This document shows, one piece after another, positions 1,983-51,009 of a stretch of DNA of 55,619 bases. The stretch is from Gammaproteobacteria bacterium (GTDB taxonomy: Bacteria > Pseudomonadota > Gammaproteobacteria > Pseudomonadales > Azotimanducaceae). The notes beneath the pieces are model-generated. The model was not told the origin of the DNA. It did not search any database and saw only the letters and a list, made by a program, of their open reading frames with translations. Location: positions 1 to 55,619 of the forward strand of contig JAPPDJ010000160.1 of NCBI GenBank assembly GCA_028824555.1. The letters are read 5' to 3'. Position numbers and translations under genes: made by a program. The first letter of the stretch is position 1, and each line of letters starts with the position of its first letter.

Positions 1983-4685
1983 CTAGGACGCGGCGGCTCG
2001 GCGCAGGTTGGCTGGGTTGAAGGGGAGGTCGCGGGGGCGGATGCCCGTGGCGGCAAAGATGGCGTTGGCGACGGCGGCGGAGGTGGGGCCTTGGAGGGCT
2101 TCTCCGGCACCGACCGGTTGCTGTTCGGGGTGGTCGAGCAACGTCGTTTCGATGCGTGGCACGTCGGAGAAGCGGAGGATCGGGTAGTCGTTCCAATCGG
2201 TGTCCGTGACGCCGTGGGTGTCGAAGGAGACTTCCTCGAACAGCGTCCACGAGAGGGCTTGGACGAACCCGCCTTCAAGTTGGTTGGTGAGGCCGTCGCG
2301 GTCCACGATGCGGCCGGCGTCTGCGGCGATCCAGGCGCGCCTCACGAGCACTTCGGCGGCATCGGAAACGGCAACTTCCACCACCACCGCCGCGCAGCAT
2401 TGGCGGTTCTTGTAGCGGGCGATGGCGACGCCTCGCGGCCCGTCGAGGCCGCCAGCTAGCTGGAGGGCGGCATTCAACACCGCAAGTGCCCTGGGGTCGT
2501 GGGCGAGGTGGCGGCGACGGAATTCATCGGGAGCCACCTTGGCCGCCTGCGCCAGTTCGTCCATGAACGACTCGATGGCGAACACATTGCAATGGGCACC
2601 GAGGCTCCTGAGCGACGATGTTCTGAGCGGTGAAGCGGTGCAGAAGCGTTTTACGACTTCCTGATTCGGGAACTCGTAGAGCGGCAGGGCATTGCGGTGC
2701 AGGCCCGACTCGGCACCGCGGCCCGGTTGCGGCGGGGTCGGTTCGAACGGTTCGTCCATGAGCCATGCGGCGAGCATGTCCACACCGCGCCGTTGCGGCG
2801 CGGGGCGGCCGGAGTGGGTGAAACCGCGTACGTCGTGGCGCCAATGGGATACCGCGCCGCTTTCGATGCTGGCCCCCAACTCCACCTGCATGGCCGGACC
2901 GAGCGGCTCGAAACGATGCTCGTCGGCGCGGGTCCACTGCAAGAGGATTGCCTGATCCGGCAGAGCGCGGGCGACCAAGGCTGCGTCCAGTGCGGCGTCG
3001 TCGGCACCGTTGTGGCCGTAGCAGCCGGCGCCCTCGCTGTGCGCCACTTCCACCTGTTCGAGTTCGAGGCCGAGCACCTTGGCGAGCATTGCCTTCAAGA
3101 ACTCGATGCCCTGACTCGACGAACGCACGAGCATTCGGCCCCCCTGCCACAGCGCCCAAGCGGCGGACGGGCCGAGCGAACCGTGCATGAGGAACGGGCG
3201 TGAGTAGGTCGCGTGGTGGGTGGTGGCGAGGTCGCGCGCCGGGCGCTCGGTTGGCTTGCCGTCGTCGAGGGGGAGGGCCGCGGTCTCGCTCTTTCGCATG
3301 TGGTCGGCAAGGGTGCCCGCCATGGCAGGCACGTCGGCGGCGTGCCATCTTGCTCGGGACCGGACCCGTTCGGCGAGACGGCTGGCCGTGAATTCATCCG
3401 GGTGCGCCACCGCGACAAAGGAGCCGTTGACGACGAGATGGCCCGGCAGTTCGATTCTCGCCGCGATGGCGTCGAGCCGGTGGTGCATCGACGGCGGACG
3501 CACGACCCGCGCATGCAGGTCTGAGGGCAGGTCGTGGACGAATGCCGGCTCGCCGCGCACCTTGGCTGCAAGGTCGATGCGCGGCGCATGACCCACTCCC
3601 ACCAAACGGTAGTCGGCCGGGCGCTTCTCGGCGGTGGACTCGGAAAGCTCGAAATCCGCGGGCACTGCCTCAAGCTGCCAGTAATCGAGCGGTCGATTGA
3701 TCCCCGGCGCAGTCAAGATGCCGTTTTCAACCGTGATGCGCTCCGGACCCACACCAAGCTCTGCCGCGGCACGCTCGAGCAGGAGCCGTCGCAACCACGC
3801 GGCGGCCTGGCGCAATGCCGCCCCGCTGGTTTCGAGTGACATGGAACCAGCCGTGATGCCTTCGTTCGGCGTTCTTCCCGTGTGCGCCGTCTCGATCACG
3901 ACGCGCTCGGGATCAACATCGAGCTCCTCGGCAACGATGAGCCGTAGCGCCGTAAGGATGCCCTGGCCGATTTCCACCTTGCCGGTGTGCGCAACCACTC
4001 GATCCGGCGCCTCGATGCGCACCCAGTTCGACAGTCGAGGAAACGCCCGCAGCCCGGGCGGCAGGCTCACCGCTGGCCCCCGCCGGCAAGACTCGCAAGC
4101 GGGCCCTTGCGGGCGCGTCGGCAGTTCGCTGGCGCGAACTACTGGCCTTCGTGCTCGCGTTCGCTCGCAGCTACGGCTAGCAGCCTGTCGGACTTCGCCG
4201 CCATACCGCGAAGTCCGACAGGCTGCTAGCGCCCGAAGAATGCGCGGATGCGCCCCACAGCGGCACAGATGCGGCGCAAGCGCCGCGCGGATGTCGGCAT
4301 CCGTGGGTGCTTGCGCGCCCTTACGGGCGCGTCGGCAGTTCGCTGGCGCGAACTGCTGGGGCCGGAACAGCGCCTCCGCCGCCACGACGATACCCGGCAG
4401 GCAATAGCCGCACTGGCCGGCGTTGAAGTCAAGCAGGGCCCTGCGCACGGGCGAGTCGAGACCGGCCGCCGTCTCCACGCTCCGCCCTTGGGCATCTTGC
4501 GCGGGCATCGTGCAAGCGAACGCGAGCTGGCCGTCCACCAGCACCCGGCAGGCGCCGCATTGCTCGGCGCCGCAGCCGTAGCGCACGCTCACATCGCCAA
4601 GCCGCCGCAGCGGATAGAGCAGCGGTTCATCTTGCTGGACGTCGACTTCGCGGGCGACGCCGTTGAGTTCGAAGGCGATTGGCAA
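1983..4685 (-). CDS. Fused [2Fe-2S]-molybdopterin hydroxylase (isoquinoline oxidoreductase / nicotinate dehydrogenase B-like)
   Basis: The 900-residue protein joins two subunits that are normally separate. Residues 1-150 are a xanthine-oxidase-type small subunit with two [2Fe-2S] sites: C38, C43, C46 and C58 (plant-ferredoxin type), and C92, C95, C141 and C143 (CGYC...CRCG). Residues from about 209 (LPPGLRAFPRLSNWVRIE, then TGKVEIGQGILTAL) to the end form a molybdopterin-binding large subunit of the IorB/NdhB type. No FAD subunit is adjacent, as in the IorAB group, which pass electrons to other acceptors. Expected role: hydroxylation of an aldehyde or N-heterocycle; the substrate is unknown. 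Residues 109-125 and about 155-205 are encoded by dispersed repeats, including a perfect 23-bp inverted repeat, inserted without breaking the frame. The start is a TTG with no clear ribosome site, so it is uncertain. It follows the VOC gene by 19 nt. Confidence 0.85.
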   Translation of the reverse strand: MPIAFELNGVAREVDVQQDEPLLYPLRRLGDVSVRYGCGAEQCGACRVLVDGQLAFACTMPAQDAQGRSVETAAGLDSPVRRALLDFNAGQCGYCLPGIVVAAEALFRPQQFAPANCRRARKGAQAPTDADIRAALAPHLCRCGAHPRILRALAACRTSRYGGEVRQAASRSCERTRARRPVVRASELPTRPQGPACESCRRGPAVSLPPGLRAFPRLSNWVRIEAPDRVVAHTGKVEIGQGILTALRLIVAEELDVDPERVVIETAHTGRTPNEGITAGSMSLETSGAALRQAAAWLRRLLLERAAAELGVGPERITVENGILTAPGINRPLDYWQLEAVPADFELSESTAEKRPADYRLVGVGHAPRIDLAAKVRGEPAFVHDLPSDLHARVVRPPSMHHRLDAIAARIELPGHLVVNGSFVAVAHPDEFTASRLAERVRSRARWHAADVPAMAGTLADHMRKSETAALPLDDGKPTERPARDLATTHHATYSRPFLMHGSLGPSAAWALWQGGRMLVRSSSQGIEFLKAMLAKVLGLELEQVEVAHSEGAGCYGHNGADDAALDAALVARALPDQAILLQWTRADEHRFEPLGPAMQVELGASIESGAVSHWRHDVRGFTHSGRPAPQRRGVDMLAAWLMDEPFEPTPPQPGRGAESGLHRNALPLYEFPNQEVVKRFCTASPLRTSSLRSLGAHCNVFAIESFMDELAQAAKVAPDEFRRRHLAHDPRALAVLNAALQLAGGLDGPRGVAIARYKNRQCCAAVVVEVAVSDAAEVLVRRAWIAADAGRIVDRDGLTNQLEGGFVQALSWTLFEEVSFDTHGVTDTDWNDYPILRFSDVPRIETTLLDHPEQQPVGAGEALQGPTSAAVANAIFAATGIRPRDLPFNPANLRRAAAS
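4099..4361. repeat. In-frame repeat cluster inside the hydroxylase gene (two palindromic elements plus a 23-bp hairpin)
   Basis: Two copies of the window's commonest element (core GGGCGCGTCGGCAGTTCGCT then GGCGCGAACT) lie at 4099-4147 and 4311-4361. Between them, 4176-4198 and 4208-4230 form a perfect 23-bp inverted repeat with a 9-nt loop. The element core recurs between genes at 17.6, 21.8, 24.0, 28.3-28.5 and 29.1 kb. The hairpin core TGTCGGAC...GTCCGACA recurs at 49643-49678. All of this is translated in frame here: the first copy falls in a loop of the Fe-S domain and the rest makes up the inter-domain linker. Confidence 0.85.
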
Positions 4686-4704: not shown

Positions 4705-5085
4705 TCAGCGCTTCGGCACGCCGTAGAGATAGCGCGTGTTCACCTCCGCCTCGTTGCCGTCTGGATCGAGGATGAACAGCGCCCGGCCTTTGCCGCGGCT
4801 GCCCATGGGCCCACGGGTGAAGATGCGCCCGTCGTCCACGCGGCTCGCCACCTCGTCGAAGTGGTCCTCGCTGACGGTGAACGAGAAATGCATCGGGCCA
4901 CCGCCCTGGTGGCGTCCGGAATGCCCCTTCACCTGCAGCACCACATGGCTGCGTTCGCATTGCAGGTAAGCGCGCTCGTCGCTCTGCGTCGCCACGGGGA
5001 TGCCGAGGAGTCGATGGTAGAAATCCACGGACCGTTCAAGGTCCGCGACGTCGAGGAAGATCTCCTCAAGCCCAATGACGCTCAT
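4705..5085 (-). CDS. VOC (glyoxalase/bleomycin-resistance fold) protein
   Basis: The 126-residue product has the single-domain VOC length. It starts VIGLEEIFLDVADLERSVDF and continues FYHRLLGIPV, and ends with FILDPDGNEAEVNTRYLYG, the usual first and last beta-alpha-beta-beta-beta blocks. The family uses a metal centre with His/Glu ligands; H86 (in MHFSF) and E113 (in DGNEAEV) are candidates. VOC proteins include lyases, dioxygenases and resistance proteins, and nothing here selects among them. Its ATG overlaps the last bases of pspF (ATGA), and the hydroxylase starts 19 nt downstream, so the three genes probably form one leftward transcript. Confidence 0.8.
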   Translation of the reverse strand: MSVIGLEEIFLDVADLERSVDFYHRLLGIPVATQSDERAYLQCERSHVVLQVKGHSGRHQGGGPMHFSFTVSEDHFDEVASRVDDGRIFTRGPMGSRGKGRALFILDPDGNEAEVNTRYLYGVPKR

Positions 5086-6107
5086 GCGCCCTCCTTGCCG
5101 GCACCTTCGGCCACGCCGCCGTCGCTGCGTTGCAGTCCGTATTTCTTGAAGTAGCCGCGGAACTGGTCGTAGCTGAGACCCAATAGCTCTGCCGCCCGAC
5201 GCTGGTTGAATCGTCCCTCGCGCAAGGCTTGATTGATGAGTTCGATCTCGAAGTCCTGCACGGCGTCCTTCAGAGACAGCGGCAGCGCCGGCGCCTGTCG
5301 GGGCCCGCCGTTGTCCTCTTGCGCCTGCGGACGGAAGGGCGATGCGAAGGGGTCCAGCACGATCTCGTCCACCGCTTCGTCTTCAGGCGCCCGGTACACG
5401 GCCCGTTCCACCACGTTCTTGAGCTCGCGCAGGTTGCCCGGCCAGCGGTGCGTGGCAAGGCGGTCCATCGCTGTCGAACTGAAGCCAGGGAAGAAGCCGC
5501 GACCGAGTTCCTTGGCCATGTTGACGGCGAAGTACTCGGCCAGGAGCGGGATGTCGCCCGGCCGCTCCCGCAGCGGCGGCAGGGTGATGACATCGAAGGC
5601 GAGGCGGTCGAGCAGGTCGTGGCGAAAGCGTTCCGCGGCCGCAAGTTCAGGCAAGTCCTCGTTGGTGGCGGCGATCAGGCGCACGTCCGCCTGCAGCGTC
5701 TTGCGCCCGCCCACCCGCTCGAACTCACCGTACTCGATTACCCGCAGCAGCTTCTCCTGCACCAGTGCGGAGGTGGTCGCCACCTCGTCGAGGAACAGCG
5801 TGCCGCCGTCGGCGCGCTCGAAACGACCGTGGTGGGTGCGCGAGGCGCCGGTGAAGGAGCCGGCTTCGTGGCCAAAGAGTTCGCTCTCGATCAGATTGTC
5901 GCTGATGGCGGCGCAGTTGAGCTTGAGGAACTCGCGCTCCCAGCGATCGGAAAGGTAATGCAGGCGGGCGGCGATGAGTTCCTTGCCGGTGCCGCGCTCG
6001 CCCACCACCAGCACCGGCTTTTCCAGCGGTGCCACCCGGGAGACCGACTCCAGCACCTGAAGAAAGGCCGGGGACTCGCCGACGAGACGATCGGGTTCAT
6101 TGCGCAT
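5082..6107 (-). CDS. pspF: PspF, sigma-54-dependent activator of the phage shock operon
   Basis: The 341-residue AAA+ enhancer-binding protein has no N-terminal receiver or sensor domain, which is typical of PspF. It shows Walker A GERGTGKE, Walker B GGTLFLDE, an ATNEDL motif, RERPGDIPLLAEYF, and a C-terminal Fis-type helix-turn-helix (FNQRRAAELLGLSYDQFRGY). The sigma-54 contact loop reads GSFTGA rather than the usual GAFTGA. In E. coli PspF is held inactive by PspA and activates the divergent psp operon; the same head-to-head arrangement with pspA is seen here. The ATG at 6107 (MRNEPDRLVGES) is preferred over an upstream ATG at 6230, which would add a 41-residue arginine/serine-rich stretch with no family counterpart. 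Confidence 0.93.
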   Translation of the reverse strand: MRNEPDRLVGESPAFLQVLESVSRVAPLEKPVLVVGERGTGKELIAARLHYLSDRWEREFLKLNCAAISDNLIESELFGHEAGSFTGASRTHHGRFERADGGTLFLDEVATTSALVQEKLLRVIEYGEFERVGGRKTLQADVRLIAATNEDLPELAAAERFRHDLLDRLAFDVITLPPLRERPGDIPLLAEYFAVNMAKELGRGFFPGFSSTAMDRLATHRWPGNLRELKNVVERAVYRAPEDEAVDEIVLDPFASPFRPQAQEDNGGPRQAPALPLSLKDAVQDFEIELINQALREGRFNQRRAAELLGLSYDQFRGYFKKYGLQRSDGGVAEGAGKEGA

Positions 6108-6265: not shown

Positions 6266-6312
6266 AAGCCTTGGTGCATGGCAACGCATGCGAATTTCAA
6301 GGAGGACTCGCA

Positions 6313-7011
6313 ATGAGTGTCTTTTCCCGGCTCACCGACATCATCAACTCGAACATCAACTCTCTGCTCGACAAAGCGGAGGACCCCGAGAAGATGGTGC
6401 GCCTCATCATCCAGGAGATGGAGGAGACGCTGGTGGAGGTGCGCACCGCCTCGGCGCGTGCCATCGCTGACCGCAAGGAGCTCCAGCGCCGCTCCGCCTA
6501 CTTCGAGGCCGAAGCCGGCGAGTGGGAGCGCAAGGCCGAACTCGCCGTCGGCAAGGGTCGTGACGACCTCGCCCGGGGCGCTCTGATGGAGCGTGCCAAG
6601 GCCGAGGAAACCGCCGTCACGGTGCGGTCAGACCTCTCGGTGCTCGACGAAACCCTGGCCAAGCTCTCTAACGACATCGCCGCCTTGCAGCAGAAGATCA
6701 AGGATGCCAAGGCGCGGCAGAATGCCATCGTCCTGCGCGGTCAGGCCAGCCGCTCCCGCCTCGACGCCCGGCGCCAGCTTTCCGACCACAGCATCGACGA
6801 TGCAATGAACCGCTTCGAGCAGTACGAACGCAAGATCGACGACCTCGAAGGGCAGGTGGAGTCCTACGACATGGGGCAGCGCTCGCTCACCGACGAGATC
6901 AACCAGCTCGAGGTGGACGAGGGCGTGGACGAGGAACTCCAGGCGCTCAAGGCGCGGCTGGCCGGCAACGGCGAAGCCCAGCCTCTGCCGGCGCCGAAAG
7001 ACGGGGAGTGA
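6313..7011 (+). CDS. pspA: Phage shock protein A
   Basis: The 232-residue product begins SVFSRLTDIINSNINSLLDK and continues AEDPEKMVRLIIQEMEETL, the signature start of PspA/IM30 proteins, and is then almost entirely coiled coil. PspA is an ESCRT-III-like peripheral membrane protein that binds and stabilises damaged inner membrane and inhibits PspF in the resting state. A strong ribosome site (AAGGAGGA at 6299-6306) precedes the ATG at 6313; an upstream in-frame ATG at 6271 is not needed. It is slightly longer than E. coli PspA (222) through an acidic, proline-ending tail. It is the first gene of the expanded psp operon. Confidence 0.95.
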   Translation: MSVFSRLTDIINSNINSLLDKAEDPEKMVRLIIQEMEETLVEVRTASARAIADRKELQRRSAYFEAEAGEWERKAELAVGKGRDDLARGALMERAKAEETAVTVRSDLSVLDETLAKLSNDIAALQQKIKDAKARQNAIVLRGQASRSRLDARRQLSDHSIDDAMNRFEQYERKIDDLEGQVESYDMGQRSLTDEINQLEVDEGVDEELQALKARLAGNGEAQPLPAPKDGE

Positions 7012-10303: not shown

Positions 10304-12172
10304 ATGAGCTATCAAGTGCTGGCACGGAAGTACCGCCCGCGTGAATTCGATGACGTGGCAGGGCAAGAACACGCCGTGCGGGCGCTCAAGAACGCCCTCG
10401 ACCTCGGCCAGCTGCACCACGCCTATCTCTTCACAGGCACGCGCGGCGTCGGCAAGACTACGCTCGCGCGCATCCTCGCAAGGTGCCTCAACTGCGAAAC
10501 CGGCGTCACTTCCACGCCATGTGGCGAATGCCGCGCCTGCAACGACATCGTGGGCGGGCGCTTCGTCGATTTGATTGAAGTGGACGCTGCCTCCCGCACC
10601 GGCGTGGACGATACGCGGGAGCTCCTCAACAACGTGCAATACCTGCCGACGAACGGGCGCTACAAGGTGTACCTGATCGACGAGGTACACATGCTGTCCA
10701 CCTCCAGCTTCAACGCCCTGCTGAAGACGCTCGAAGAACCCCCGGAACACGTCAAGTTCGTGCTGGCGACCACGGAGGCGCGCCGCATCCCGGTCACGGT
10801 GCTCTCGCGCTGCCTGCAACTGAACCTCAGGAACATGCGTCCGGCCACCATCGAAGCCCAACTGAAGCAGATTCTGGCGGAGGAGAGCATCGAGGCCGAG
10901 GCCGAGGCGCTCGGCGTGATCGCCCGCGCCGCCGACGGCAGCATGCGGGACGCCTTGTCGATCACGGACCAAGCCGTGGCGCATGGCGGCGGCAGCGTGC
11001 GCGAGGCGGAGGTGATCGAGATGCTGGGCGTCGTGCGAAGCGACGAGGTGGGGGCACTGCTTTCCGCACTGGCCGACCACGACGTGCAGCAACTGCTTGC
11101 GGCCGGTGATGCCATCGCGGACCGTGCCGCCAGCCTGCCCGAGGTGGTGGAGGGCTTGCAGCGGGCATTCCACGACCTCGCGGTTGCGGCGGAGCTAGAC
11201 TTGGCGCCGGATGATTCCCTAACCGCGTTCCAGGGGCGCTTCTCGGCGGAGGACTTGCAGCTTTGCTATCAGATCGCGCTCATGGGCGGGCGCGACATGC
11301 AGTTCGCGCCGGATCCGAAGGTGGGCTTCGACATGACCCTGCTTCGGCTGGCGGCGTTCGAGCCCTCGGGGGAGGGCGGGGATGAACGCCGCGCCAGCGA
11401 CCGGGGGAGCAAGCCGGAGCCAAGCGTGAAGCCGGCGCGCCAAAGGGCGAACACACCACCGGCGGAGCAAAAGGGACGCGATGGGGGCGTGAATGGTCGC
11501 CTGATGGATGGAGGGGCAGTGCCGGAAGCCGAGGCTCCGGTGACGCCGGCACCGTCGCCCGATTCTGCGTTTGCCCAACCGCCGCACCCGGCGATGGAAG
11601 CGACCCCGTTACCCGACGGGGGAGACGGAGGGCGGGACGCCTTCCCTCCAGACGAACCCATGCGATCAGAGTCGCCCGTTCCGGTCGGACCCGTGGCGCC
11701 GGAGCCTCCTCCAGAGGACCGCGTCCCACCACCGGCAACCGTCGGGGCCGCGGCGGCTTCCCCCAACGGGCCGGCATCGGGCGAGTGGCACGAGATCGTC
11801 GCGGCAATGGCGCCGCAGGGGGTGACGGCAATGGTGCTGGAAAACGCCAACCTGCTGGAAAAGGGCGACAACGTCTGGCGCATCGCCCTCGATCCGGGGC
11901 ACGAAGCGATCCTCAACGACAAGCAGCGCGCCGAGGTGGCGAACCTCGCTTCCCGCTACGCCGGACATAGCGTGCGCGTCGCCATCGAAATCGGCGCTCT
12001 TGCCGAGGAGACGCCGGCGGCGCGGCGGACGCGCATCCGTGCGCAGCAGGAGGAGGCGGCGCGGCAGGCTTTGATGCAGGATGATGCCGCACGGAGCCTG
12101 ATCGAACAGTTCGACGGTCGGATCGAGAGTGTCAAGGCCATCGCGCCGGCCAGCGAGGGAGCGAGGGAATGA
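10304..12172 (+). CDS. dnaX: DNA polymerase III subunit gamma/tau
   Basis: The 622-residue clamp-loader ATPase has YQVLARKYRPREFDDVAGQE, Walker A GTRGVGKT (about residue 45), four zinc-binding cysteines (C61, C64, C73, C76) and Walker B VYLIDEVHML, followed by the sensor-1 region. Residues about 370-500 are a low-complexity proline/acid-rich linker, and the last 120 residues correspond to the tau region. No obvious A-rich slippery site was seen, so a frameshifted gamma form is not predicted. A copy of a dispersed palindrome lies in frame in the linker (11627-11652). The ATG at 10304 (MSYQVLARKYRP) is preferred over an upstream GTG/ATG at 10262. It is the first gene of dnaX-ybaB-recR-rnd, and ybaB overlaps its stop (ATGA). 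Confidence 0.95.
   Translation: MSYQVLARKYRPREFDDVAGQEHAVRALKNALDLGQLHHAYLFTGTRGVGKTTLARILARCLNCETGVTSTPCGECRACNDIVGGRFVDLIEVDAASRTGVDDTRELLNNVQYLPTNGRYKVYLIDEVHMLSTSSFNALLKTLEEPPEHVKFVLATTEARRIPVTVLSRCLQLNLRNMRPATIEAQLKQILAEESIEAEAEALGVIARAADGSMRDALSITDQAVAHGGGSVREAEVIEMLGVVRSDEVGALLSALADHDVQQLLAAGDAIADRAASLPEVVEGLQRAFHDLAVAAELDLAPDDSLTAFQGRFSAEDLQLCYQIALMGGRDMQFAPDPKVGFDMTLLRLAAFEPSGEGGDERRASDRGSKPEPSVKPARQRANTPPAEQKGRDGGVNGRLMDGGAVPEAEAPVTPAPSPDSAFAQPPHPAMEATPLPDGGDGGRDAFPPDEPMRSESPVPVGPVAPEPPPEDRVPPPATVGAAAASPNGPASGEWHEIVAAMAPQGVTAMVLENANLLEKGDNVWRIALDPGHEAILNDKQRAEVANLASRYAGHSVRVAIEIGALAEETPAARRTRIRAQQEEAARQALMQDDAARSLIEQFDGRIESVKAIAPASEGARE
11627..11652. repeat. In-frame palindromic element in the dnaX linker
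   Basis: GGAGGGCGGGACGCC and the following TTCCCTCCAGA match, with one mismatch over 26 bases, the reverse complement of the intergenic hairpin at 33131-33159 downstream of etfA. The element is palindromic (GGAGGGCG...CCCTCC). It encodes GGRDAFPPD in the flexible DnaX linker, at about residues 442-450. Confidence 0.75.
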
Positions 12173-17463: not shown

Positions 17464-17811
17464 CGCACGCAAGACGCCTTCCTTCGCCCGGCCCCTCGGG
17501 GCATGTGCCGAGTCCATCGGCGCGTCTTCGCATTCCTCGTAGGGACGGGCTTGTCCCGTCCCGGCGCGCCCTGACGGGCGCGTTGGCAGTTCGCTTGCGC
17601 GAACTGCTTTGCTTCGACGAAATGCTCGTGTCGAATTCAAGACGGGCGGGGACAAGCCCCGCCCCTACGAGGCCCGTGGCGCGTCCGCCGGTGCGTTCAA
17701 CACGGGCGGCATGGACTCGGCTTCGAGGCGCTTTCTTGGTTTACCGGCGAGGCATTAGCATATTGAGGTCGAGCGAGGCGTAGGCTCGAAGGCGTTCCGA
17801 GGACCACATCC
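17464..17811. repeat. 348-bp gap filled with palindromic elements
   Basis: The gap holds GTAGGGACGGGCTTGTCCCG (17539-17558), then a full copy of the commonest element (17563-17608: CGCGCCCTGACGGGCGCGTT, GGCAGTTCGC, GCGAACTGC), and then GACGGGCGGGGACAAGCCCC (17641-17660), which is the first element inverted. I see no coding potential. The last ~100 bp before hrpA should hold its promoter, but I could not assign one. Confidence 0.75.
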
Positions 17812-21690: not shown

Positions 21691-21802
21691 GAGGCTGCGT
21701 CGTAAGCGGCGTAGCCTCCTAGCCGAAGTGGTGAGCGAATGCGAAGTAAGGAGGCCAGCAGTTCGCGTAGCGAACTACCAACGCGCCCGTCACGGCGTGC
21801 TA
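21685..21802. repeat. Composite repeat abutting the hrpA stop
   Basis: It begins CTAGGAGGCTGCGTCGTAAG and forms a hairpin with GCGTAGCCTCCTAG. It continues GTGGTGAGCGAATGCGAA and ends with the commonest element (CAGCAGTTCGC, GCGAACTACCAACGCGCCCG, GGCGTGCTA). The same composite, in the same order, follows the DUF1285 gene at 29027-29140, with about 80% identity by eye. The hrpA stop codon lies in its first four bases (CTAG). Confidence 0.8.
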
Positions 21803-23997: not shown

Positions 23998-24086
23998 GAG
24001 AACTGCCGACGCGCCGTGACGGGCGCGTCTGTAGGGGTCCGCAGTTCGCGCCAGCGAATTGCCAACGCGCCCGTCAGGGCGCGCCG
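23998..24086. repeat. Two copies of the commonest palindromic element upstream of murF
   Basis: One copy (AACTGCCGACGCGCC then GTGACGGGCGCGT) lies at 24000-24029. A second (CAGTTCGCGCCAGCGAATTG, CCAACGCGCCCGTCAGGGCG, CG) lies at 24041-24083. They occupy most of the 259-bp gap between the divergent sppA and murF starts, so one or both may overlap promoters. An AAGTTCGCGTC fragment is also present at 23961-23971. Confidence 0.8.
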
Positions 24087-28321: not shown

Positions 28322-28472
28322 GACAACGCCGGCTCAGCAGTTGCGAAGCAACTGCCAACGCGCCCGCAAGGGCGCGCGTTCATCGGTGGCTAGTCCGCGA
28401 CAACGCTGGGGTTCAGCAGTTGAGAAGCAACTGCCAACGCGCCCGCGAGGGCGCGCGTTTATCGGCGGGTAG
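28306..28472 (+). repeat. Tandem duplication of the moaA 3' end with palindromic element
   Basis: A unit of about 75 nt runs from GTTCATCGGTGGCTAG, the last five codons of moaA, through CAGCAGTTGCGAAGCAACTG to CCAACGCGCCCGCAAGGGCG, CGC. It is followed at 28378 by a second near-copy that again starts GTTCATCGGTGGCTAG, and at 28457 by the beginning of a third (GTTTATCGGCGGGTAG). Duplicated stop codons mark a recent tandem amplification. The DUF1285 start lies about 20 bp further on. Confidence 0.88.
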
Positions 28473-28493
28473 TTGGCCGCGTCCTTTGTGGCG

Positions 28494-29030: not shown

Positions 29031-29140
29031 GAGGCTGCGCCGTAAACGGCGCGGGCTCCTTCCGGAGTGGTGAGCGGATGCGAACCCGACGGCCAGCAGT
29101 TCGCGCAGCGAACTGCCGACGCGCCCGAAAGGGCGCGCTA
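29027..29140. repeat. Composite repeat abutting the DUF1285 stop (second copy)
   Basis: CTAGGAGGCTGCGCCGTAAA, then GTGGTGAGCGGATGCGAA, then CAGCAGTTCGCGCAGCGAAC and TGCCGACGCGCCCG, in the same order as 21685-21802 downstream of hrpA. From 29160 to 29240 a further pair of GGGGCGACCCTCGTGGTCGC / ACCACGGGCGAGAACAAGGG sequences forms loose inverted repeats before the etf-QO 3' end. No gene is seen in 29031-29280. Confidence 0.78.
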
Positions 29141-31011: not shown

Positions 31012-31221
31012 CTTTTGGTGGATTTCCAACAGCAGTGCCTCGAAGCCGAGCCAACACCAACGTGCCGGCCGGAAAGCGCGGTCCCATACGCGACTCGAAG
31101 CGAGGGCCCATCACGCTCCTCCCGCCGAAGGCGAAGCAATCAAGGGCCCGAAGGAGCAACCAGCCGTCACCCCGCGAGACGGGCCTGTTGGTGGCAATAA
31201 AACGGCCCAGTTCCCTGCCGT
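31012..31221 (+). repeat. 'LEAEP' dispersed repeat, copy A
   Basis: A ~200-nt element recognised by CTCGAAGCCGAGCCAACACC, GTGCCGGCCGG, CGCGGTCCCA, GGCGAAGCAA and CCCGCGAGACGGGCC. Further copies are at 46780-46990 (same strand) and 50785-50995 (opposite strand). From CGAAGCC to CGCGAGAC the distance is exactly 132 nt in all three. The frame reading CLEAEPTPTCRPESAVPYAT is open here (30982-31200). It occupies much of the etf-QO/etfB divergent gap. The remaining 150 bp before etfB, with CGATGTAGGAAAATG at about 31309-31323, should hold the etf promoter. Confidence 0.75.
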
Positions 31222-31378
31222 CCGCGGCCAGGCGCCCCCGCCAGGGCGCGAACCTGGTCGGCGTTGCCGAATGCTGGCTTTTGTCATTGCCGGCGTGCCT
31301 TTTTTGTTGCGATGTAGGAAAATGCGCGGCTTTGTCGCGGCGCATGGGCAGCCGCGGCTTAGAACATGAGGTCGTTCA

Positions 31379-33130: not shown

Positions 33131-33159
33131 CTCTCTGGAGGGAGGGCGTCCCGCCCTCC
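33131..33159. repeat. GC-rich hairpin downstream of etfA (terminator-like, dispersed element)
   Basis: CTCTCTGGAGGGAGGGCGTC then CCGCCCTCC contains GGAGGGCG and CGCCCTCC arms. It lies 75 bp after the etfA stop, so it may end the etf transcript, but no T-run follows. Its reverse complement is found in frame inside dnaX (11627-11652). The rest of 33058-33278 shows no gene. Confidence 0.55.
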
Positions 33160-46779: not shown

Positions 46780-46990
46780 CAAGACGTTGATTCTCCAAGG
46801 ATTAGACTCGAAGCCGAATCAACAGCAACGTACCGGCCGGATGGCGCGGTCCCACACGCAATTCGGAGTGAGGGCCCCTCACGCTCCTGGCGCCGAAGGC
46901 GAAGCAACCAAGGGTCCAAGCATGCAACCAGCCTCCTCCCCGCGAGACGGGCCCTTGTTTGGGTGGCGGGGAACACTGTCATGTTCCTGG
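46780..46990 (+). repeat. 'LEAEP' dispersed repeat, copy B
   Basis: It contains CTCGAAGCCGAATCAACAGC, GTACCGGCCGGATGGCGCGG, GGCGAAGCAACCAAGGG and CCCGCGAGACGGGCCC. It is about 80% identical by eye to copy A (31012-31221) and copy C (50785-50995). It fills the centre of the 378-bp gap between the divergent dehydrogenase and CoA-transferase 2. To its left, GGACGGAAGGAAGGGCGCAT then TCCCTC (46739-46764) resembles the hairpin element found after etfA and in dnaX. Confidence 0.75.
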
Positions 46991-50764: not shown

Positions 50765-50784
50765 TCCCGACGATGCCATCACGT

Positions 50785-50995
50785 GGAAGGCAGGGAACAA
50801 GACCGCCTCCCCGCCACCGAGAGGCCCGTCTCGCGGGGAGGCGGCTGGTCGCAGCTTGCGACCCTTGGTTGCTTCGCCTTCGGCGCGAGGAGCGTGAAAG
50901 GCCCTCGCTTCGAATGCCGTGTGGGACCGCGCCATCTGGCCGGCACCTTGGTGTTGGCTCGGCTTCGAGATTCATTCTTGGTTTATCAATCTGTT
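50785..50995 (-). repeat. 'LEAEP' dispersed repeat, copy C (inverted)
   Basis: Read on the minus strand it contains TTGATAAACCAAGAATGAAT, CTCGAAGCCGAGCCAACACC, GGTGCCGGCCAGATGGCGCG, GGCGAAGCAACCAAGGG and CCCGCGAGACGGGCC. The spacing from CGAAGCC to CGCGAGAC is 132 nt, as in copies A and B. It fills nearly the whole gap between the lactonase and tctC, so the tctC promoter would have to be inside or at the edge of the element. Confidence 0.75.
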
Positions 50996-51009
50996 GCGCG
51001 ATTTGTTCC

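Follow-up and report, generated by a model that had tools for sequence, protein, structure and literature searches.

How does a palindromic repeat, of a kind found mostly between genes, come to be translated inside an enzyme, and does the enzyme survive it? The question is raised by one gene in a stretch of 55,619 nt (hereafter the window), which is contig C144 of its own genome, G000 (4.216 Mb, 182 contigs). An initial annotation had proposed that two copies of a repeat and a hairpin are translated within a protein of 900 residues. This proved right: the ORF at 1983-4685(-) comprises 900 codons with no internal stop, and both copies and the hairpin were found in it. How they came there appears to be another matter. 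We consider it highly probable that a palindromic repeat of length 3n+1 fused two overlapping genes, that the resulting frame was kept, and that a bare core of the repeat was also inserted in the 2Fe-2S domain. The features are collected in Table 1.

Table 1. Features of the fused gene, its product and the repeats that it contains (nucleotide positions are those of the window; aa, residues of the fused protein).
Feature	Position	Strand	Remarks
Fused [2Fe-2S] and molybdopterin-binding subunit gene	1983..4685	-	xanthine oxidase/IorAB-like family
[2Fe-2S] subunit part of the fused protein	about aa 1-155		domain matches
Repeat-encoded linker of the fused protein	about aa 156-205
Molybdopterin-binding subunit part of the fused protein	aa 206-900		domain matches
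Relic GTGA	4067..4070	-	once the start GTG of the Mo subunit and, in overlap with it, the stop TGA of the small subunit
139-nt family A composite element	4094..4232	+	hp1-hp2-spacer-CTAG-hp3; 3n+1; source of most linker residues
hp1-hp2 core of the linker element	4099..4145	+
hp3 module	4176..4230	.	23-bp hairpin with CTAG ends; far half of the linker element
42-nt double-hairpin core (hp2+hp1)	4316..4360	-	in-frame 14-residue insertion QQFAPANCRRARKG, about aa 110-123

The fused protein matches Fer2 and Fer2_2 at its N-terminus, then MoCoBD_1 and MoCoBD_2. The match of lowest E-value is 8gy3_C, the large subunit of an aldehyde dehydrogenase, and the solved relatives include chains of aldehyde dehydrogenase, aldehyde oxidoreductase and 4-hydroxybenzoyl-CoA reductase. 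Cysteines 38, 43, 46, 58, 92, 95, 141 and 143 are retained, as is GAGE at 859; from knowledge of the family we take the former to be the cluster ligands and the latter an active-site motif. With its Fer2, Fer2_2 and MoCoBD domains and eight cysteines the protein belongs to the Mo hydroxylases of the xanthine oxidase/IorAB type, and the earlier remark that conserved cysteines and motifs are kept was borne out.

The two copies of the element in the fused gene (4099-4145 and 4313-4359) are 94% alike. They are of different classes: in the linker stands a long element of family A, whose limits we corrected to 4094-4232, and at about 4316-4360 a bare core. A 147-nt stretch folds with z = -6.06, none of 200 shuffles being equally stable. 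The two core hairpins, GCGCGCCC-NNNN-GGGCGCG and GCAGTTCGC-NNNN-GCGAACTGC, recur genome-wide. A 32-nt pattern around hp2 has 103 sites in G000 (52 + 51, with at most 3 mismatches) and its reversed control none; the hp2 hairpin alone, a palindrome for which both strands match the same sites, has 126 sites against 7 for the control. Elsewhere in G000 the full form of the element is found at 81-90% identity (40 of 408 first-look candidates scored).

Alignment of 93 copies from G000 revealed two main shells, families A and B, and bare cores as well. In family A many copies carry CTAG at their ends and the further hairpin hp3 is optional. Arms of the GTAGGGGACGGGCTTGTCCCGTCCC type enclose family B. 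In a search of relatives 11 of 38 genomes gave some match to the element, and near-full-length matches, among the matches listed, belong to G000, G009 and G014 (at most 22 candidates scored per genome). On various contigs of G008, among the matches listed, the hp3 hairpin is covered without the hp1-hp2 core, so that hp3 looks like a palindromic element in its own right that was taken up by family A. No Rfam family reached its gathering score in the window.

To place the fused gene among its relatives, 54 loci were considered, 47 of which hold both domains. The two domains are encoded by separate ORFs in 42 of these 47 and fused in five. In the nearer set (L024-L038, L062-L067) 18 of 21 are split, the fused ones being the window, G014, which is of the same genus, and G021, which is of another genus of the family; in 15 of these 18 split loci the stop lies in an ATGA or GTGA context. 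In the distant set (L039-L053, L068-L085; 33 loci, 7 of them single-domain) 24 of 26 are split, and L083 and L084 are fused. Counted from the CRCG motif, starting at its first Cys, the distance to the stop in the ATGA/GTGA overlap is exactly 19 codons in eight split loci of the same genus and 20 codons in a ninth, L036. It ranges from 20 to 28 codons in the more distant split loci listed (L034 was missed by the motif search).

The same distance can be read in the window, where CRCG is followed after 196 nt by the TGA, now out of frame, of a GTGA. These 196 nt are 139 + 57, and 57 nt are 19 codons. The relic GTG is now an in-frame codon, V206, and the split pair L062 has at its junction the same GTGAGCCTGCC as the relic site. 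When the 139 nt are removed in silico the small-subunit frame ends in ...HPRILRSLAGGGQR and the stop at the relic GTGA overlap, while the removal of 138 or 140 nt fails; the restored tail reads ...CRCGAHPRILRSLAGGGQR, terminating in the overlap. In these alignments the 139-nt element thus accounts for the fusion exactly, no further indel being required. Since the match is exact, i.e. 139 nt plus 19 codons, and since only a 139-nt deletion restores the stop, we conclude that the 3n+1 repeat most probably fused the two genes. The initial annotation had presented the linker copy too as an in-frame insertion. That repeat DNA encodes the linker stands; the in-frame insertion does not, for a repeat of length 3n+1 fused two genes there. 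Alignment to fused and split homologues upheld an in-frame insertion for the loop copy only and not for the linker copy.

The fused gene of G014 follows the same arithmetic, with 208 nt from CRCG to TGA, i.e. 151 + 57, 151 being likewise 3n+1. Its linker has the hp1-hp2 part at the identical place and a different module where the window has hp3. The linkers of G000 and G014 differ by 12 nt in length and their left modules are unlike; GTGA is retained in both.

The history that we propose starts from an ancestor with separate genes for the [2Fe-2S] and Mo subunits of a hydroxylase of the IorAB/aldehyde-dehydrogenase type, joined by a GTGA overlap. A 139-nt palindromic element (3n+1) would have inserted close to the 3' end of the gene for the small subunit and made its frame run through the stop and on in that of the following gene. 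The product would be a single fused protein with a linker of translated repeat DNA. The fused frame would then have been maintained as species diverged. In the lineage of G000 and G009 a bare 42-nt core would also have entered the 2Fe-2S domain in frame. The elements presumably moved by transposition. What can be read directly in the sequences is that relatives are split, that the lengths match exactly, that there is an empty site, that the frame has been retained and that dN/dS is low.

The fused gene of G021 (L029:1015-3555), whose linker is devoid of the element, invites another order of events: the genes may already have been fused, with a single origin for this fusion and that of G021, before the element entered an existing linker. 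In the tree the three fused rows indeed stand on one side of a branch with support 78/64, recovered in 82% of 200 bootstrap trees. We find this order improbable nevertheless. An insertion of 139 nt, 3n+1, into an already fused frame would break it, and the window minus the element has exactly the 19-codon tail and GTGA overlap of the split type. Moreover G000 and G014 both still have the GTGA, whereas the junction of G021 shows by eye neither ATGA nor GTGA. Fusion by other routes does occur, as G021 without the repeat indicates, and the distant L083 and L084 are fused as well; these three fusions are possibly independent.

We then consider whether the fused gene works. Between G000 and G014, both fused and the single species pair on which these values are based, dN/dS is 0.25 for the 2Fe-2S part (codons 1-154), 0.15 for the Mo part (codons 207-900) and about 0.96, with saturated rates, for the linker. 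Both domains are under purifying selection between these two genomes. The low values in the domains and the kept cysteines and GAGE argue for a functional protein whose linker is free to vary, and we infer that the full-length chain is the working product. A frameshift marking a dead gene was one of the findings that, by the initial annotation, would have refuted it; the 900 codons are open and dN/dS is low in both domains.

An open frame might still give two products if ribosomes restart at the GTG inside it; alternatively the fusion might be a dead-end allele. Both the GTG start and a G-rich stretch upstream of it are retained, and the linker, with dN/dS about 0.96, appears unconstrained, which would suit either possibility. 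We regard them as unlikely: two species have an open frame despite a rebuilt linker with a net difference of 12 nt, and both domains are under purifying selection. That the assembly misjoined repeat copies has very little probability. Repeats can break or misjoin contigs, and both assemblies are drafts (G014 is in about 300 contigs); several copies of the element lie at contig ends, and the contig of G009 stops just past its loop copy, its last bases being garbled. But the assembly of G014, made on its own, has the core at the same place and G009 has the loop copy, and the intact frame and the exact length arithmetic also speak against an artefact. A fusion brought about by the repeat and kept as a working gene is the reading that we retain.

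The copy in the 2Fe-2S domain is of the other kind. It stands before the PTxxxIxxAL stretch of this domain and can be placed within a few bases only, its 42 nt lying somewhere in the 45 nt of 4316-4360. Compared with G014 the window has 42 nt extra (ALFRPQQFAPANCRRARKGAQAPT versus ALFRRPQAPT), so that this orthologue of the same genus is an empty site for the loop copy. The fragment from G009 carries the insert up to the end of its contig, where the final bases look garbled. All 11 other 2Fe-2S rows aligned are without the 14-residue insert, ten having no extra residue and L036 four. Four printed alignments to solved structures, on which the position of the insert rests, show a 14-residue gap before the stretch leading to the second cysteine pair. 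That one copy splits a loop of the Fe-S domain in frame, as first annotated, is thus confirmed by the empty site in G014 and by the 11 rows. Because the insert is absent from the other rows and both domains are under purifying selection, the comparison supports a clean in-frame insertion tolerated by the gene.

Two copies in one gene, palindromic and with the loop copy in frame, could mean that the family is adapted to in-frame insertion in genes, as the Rickettsia palindromic elements to which it had been likened. This was assessed by a census, in which a copy passes if the element is open and the same coding frame is the best, above a threshold, on both flanks. With the codon model used, the correct frame scored best in 98.6% of 240-nt windows from the ORFs on which it had been trained; since 5% of the true windows fall below a score of about 0.05, the two-sided test may miss about one true case in ten. 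A first model, which it replaced, had picked the right answer in just 84% of cases. Of the 103 pattern sites of G000, 101 distinct copies were examined; 9 of them are too close to contig ends, leaving 92 scorable.

Only one of these 92 passes, the copy at 4114 in the fused gene. That at 4328 fails formally, its left flank being mostly the other element, and is in frame by homology. At L186, a weak site with 3 mismatches, the best frame is open on both sides with scores of 0.18 and -0.02. The same lone open case had emerged from an earlier run over 93 copies. G014 has 72 sites, and of the 58 examined there 53 could be scored; the sole pass is the orthologue of the fused gene. The 14 long copies are open on average in 2.2 of 6 frames, versus 3.3 for 2000 139-mers drawn at random from the genome; for the 42-nt cores there is no difference from random DNA (4.93 and 4.92 open frames). 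Repeats of this family are rarely in frame in genes and the fused gene is the exception. An adaptation to in-frame insertion is hence extremely unlikely: a single gene passes out of 92 scorable copies in G000, the 53 of G014 yield no more than its orthologue, and long copies are open in fewer frames than random DNA. The behaviour expected on the Rickettsia model was not seen genome-wide, and we set this part of the annotation aside, keeping the view that a 3n+1 repeat probably made the fusion.

Rickettsia palindromic elements are described, in the text available to us, as short palindromic repeats translated in frame within genes (PMC10969869, PMC3733652). The comparison is apt only partly. 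Like them the window element is palindromic, as its hairpin z-score attests; unlike them its family favours no readable frame and has in-frame copies only exceptionally, and one window copy fused, as we read it, two genes through a frame shift. Closer in form are the tagged REPs (GTAG/CGTC), some of them intragenic (Di Nocera 2013, PMC3733652). According to the available parts of that paper REPs lie inside ORFs of many species, including Thioalkalivibrio uvrA and Xanthomonas recB, and are thought to occupy linkers or loops there. These repeats too, as described there, are short hairpin units at about a hundred or more sites, with dimers or composites and some copies in ORFs.

The CGTC-tagged REP is described in the same parts of PMC3733652 as having an unpaired CGTC at one end, a stem of 8-9 bp, a loop of 4-5 nt and a short tail. 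The element in the fused gene, with a 9-bp stem and a 4-nt loop after CGTC or CGTT, resembles this class. This tag precedes the GCAGTTCGC stem; its first bases also belong to the hp1 arm and are not clearly unpaired. In contrast to that REP, in which complementary AT in the first two stem positions is almost invariable as far as the available text goes, the window stem starts with GC. Family A differs further by ending in CTAG, and the available parts of PMC3733652 do not mention the fusion of a gene pair.

The initial annotation knew of no description of such behaviour in a gammaproteobacterium of free-living type. To judge from partial texts intragenic repeats had already been published for gammaproteobacteria, for ERIC/RU (PMC2759123), for Coxiella (PMC5896051) and for REPs (PMC3733652). 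As described in the parts available, enterobacterial ERIC/RU are fused to ORFs and add translated residues, one repeat having apparently deleted a stop codon and extended a single protein (Delihas 2007, PMC2759123). In Coxiella, a gammaproteobacterium, residues of the MITE QMITE are read in frame in some ORFs (PMC5896051). ERIC/RU, on this partial evidence, lengthens the end of one gene and the QMITE cases concern gene ends and hypothetical proteins, whereas the window element would join two neighbouring subunit genes. Titles and abstract beginnings in the open-licence PubMed Central literature gave no account of two subunit genes being joined by a REP-type repeat.

The origin of bacterial domain fusions is usually inferred from the finished product alone. 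Here it may be followed base by base: the split type is at hand together with the repeat that was inserted, the GTGA overlap persists as a relic, and the fusion has left two descendants. A selfish or structural repeat would thereby be linked to the origin of a multidomain enzyme. We see about even chances for a wider proposal, that a noncoding palindromic repeat of length 3n+1 can serve as a ready-made linker turning a two-gene operon with overlapping genes into a stable two-domain enzyme, the fusion being selected while the linker turns over, and that this is a regular route in repeat-rich genomes. If so, such genomes would regularly make fusion proteins at ATGA/GTGA overlaps, and the case offers a simple test, a search of repeat-rich genomes for 3n+1 repeats at four-base gene overlaps.

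Some clues bear on the mobility of the repeats. At the site of a copy on contig C179, G014 is without the element and has 32 nt of other sequence; at that of a copy on C145 it has the core in a different left context. In a test for MITE-like features CTAG was found at many copy ends and a single CTAG at one element-free site of G014, which is suggestive. As to family B, whose outer arms start with GTAG, a Y1_Tnp (RAYT-like) gene lies at L175 (G010) amid 6 exact copies of the outer arm GTAGGGGACGGGCTTGTCCCGTCCC, and another at L174 (G004) amid 5 copies, 4 of them exact. From its sequence this arrangement looks like a REPtron for family B. Family A showed no association with RAYT genes at the five loci scanned, L176 having single weak hp1-like and hp3-like matches. 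The one Y1_Tnp match of G000, L178 (C24:10166-10396), lends no support to a RAYT as mobiliser of family A, with 0 of 6 tested modules within its 3.2-kb locus. By eye it is not near the hairpin families studied here and lies near GGAGGGAGGGCGTCCCGCCCTCC-type repeats, as found also at 11627-11652 and 33134-33159 of the window.

Elsewhere in the window further hairpins related to the same core lie at 17564-17610, 21753-21802, 24037-24086, 28331-28473 and 29091-29140. Another repeat, of about 170-190 nt, is present in three copies in two orientations, 82-84% alike (31039-31226, 46780-46953 and 50782-50996). Beside the fused gene, an activator of the PspF type (5085-6107; TIGR02974 above cut-off) adjoins an ORF (6271-7011) that is PspA-like by eye.
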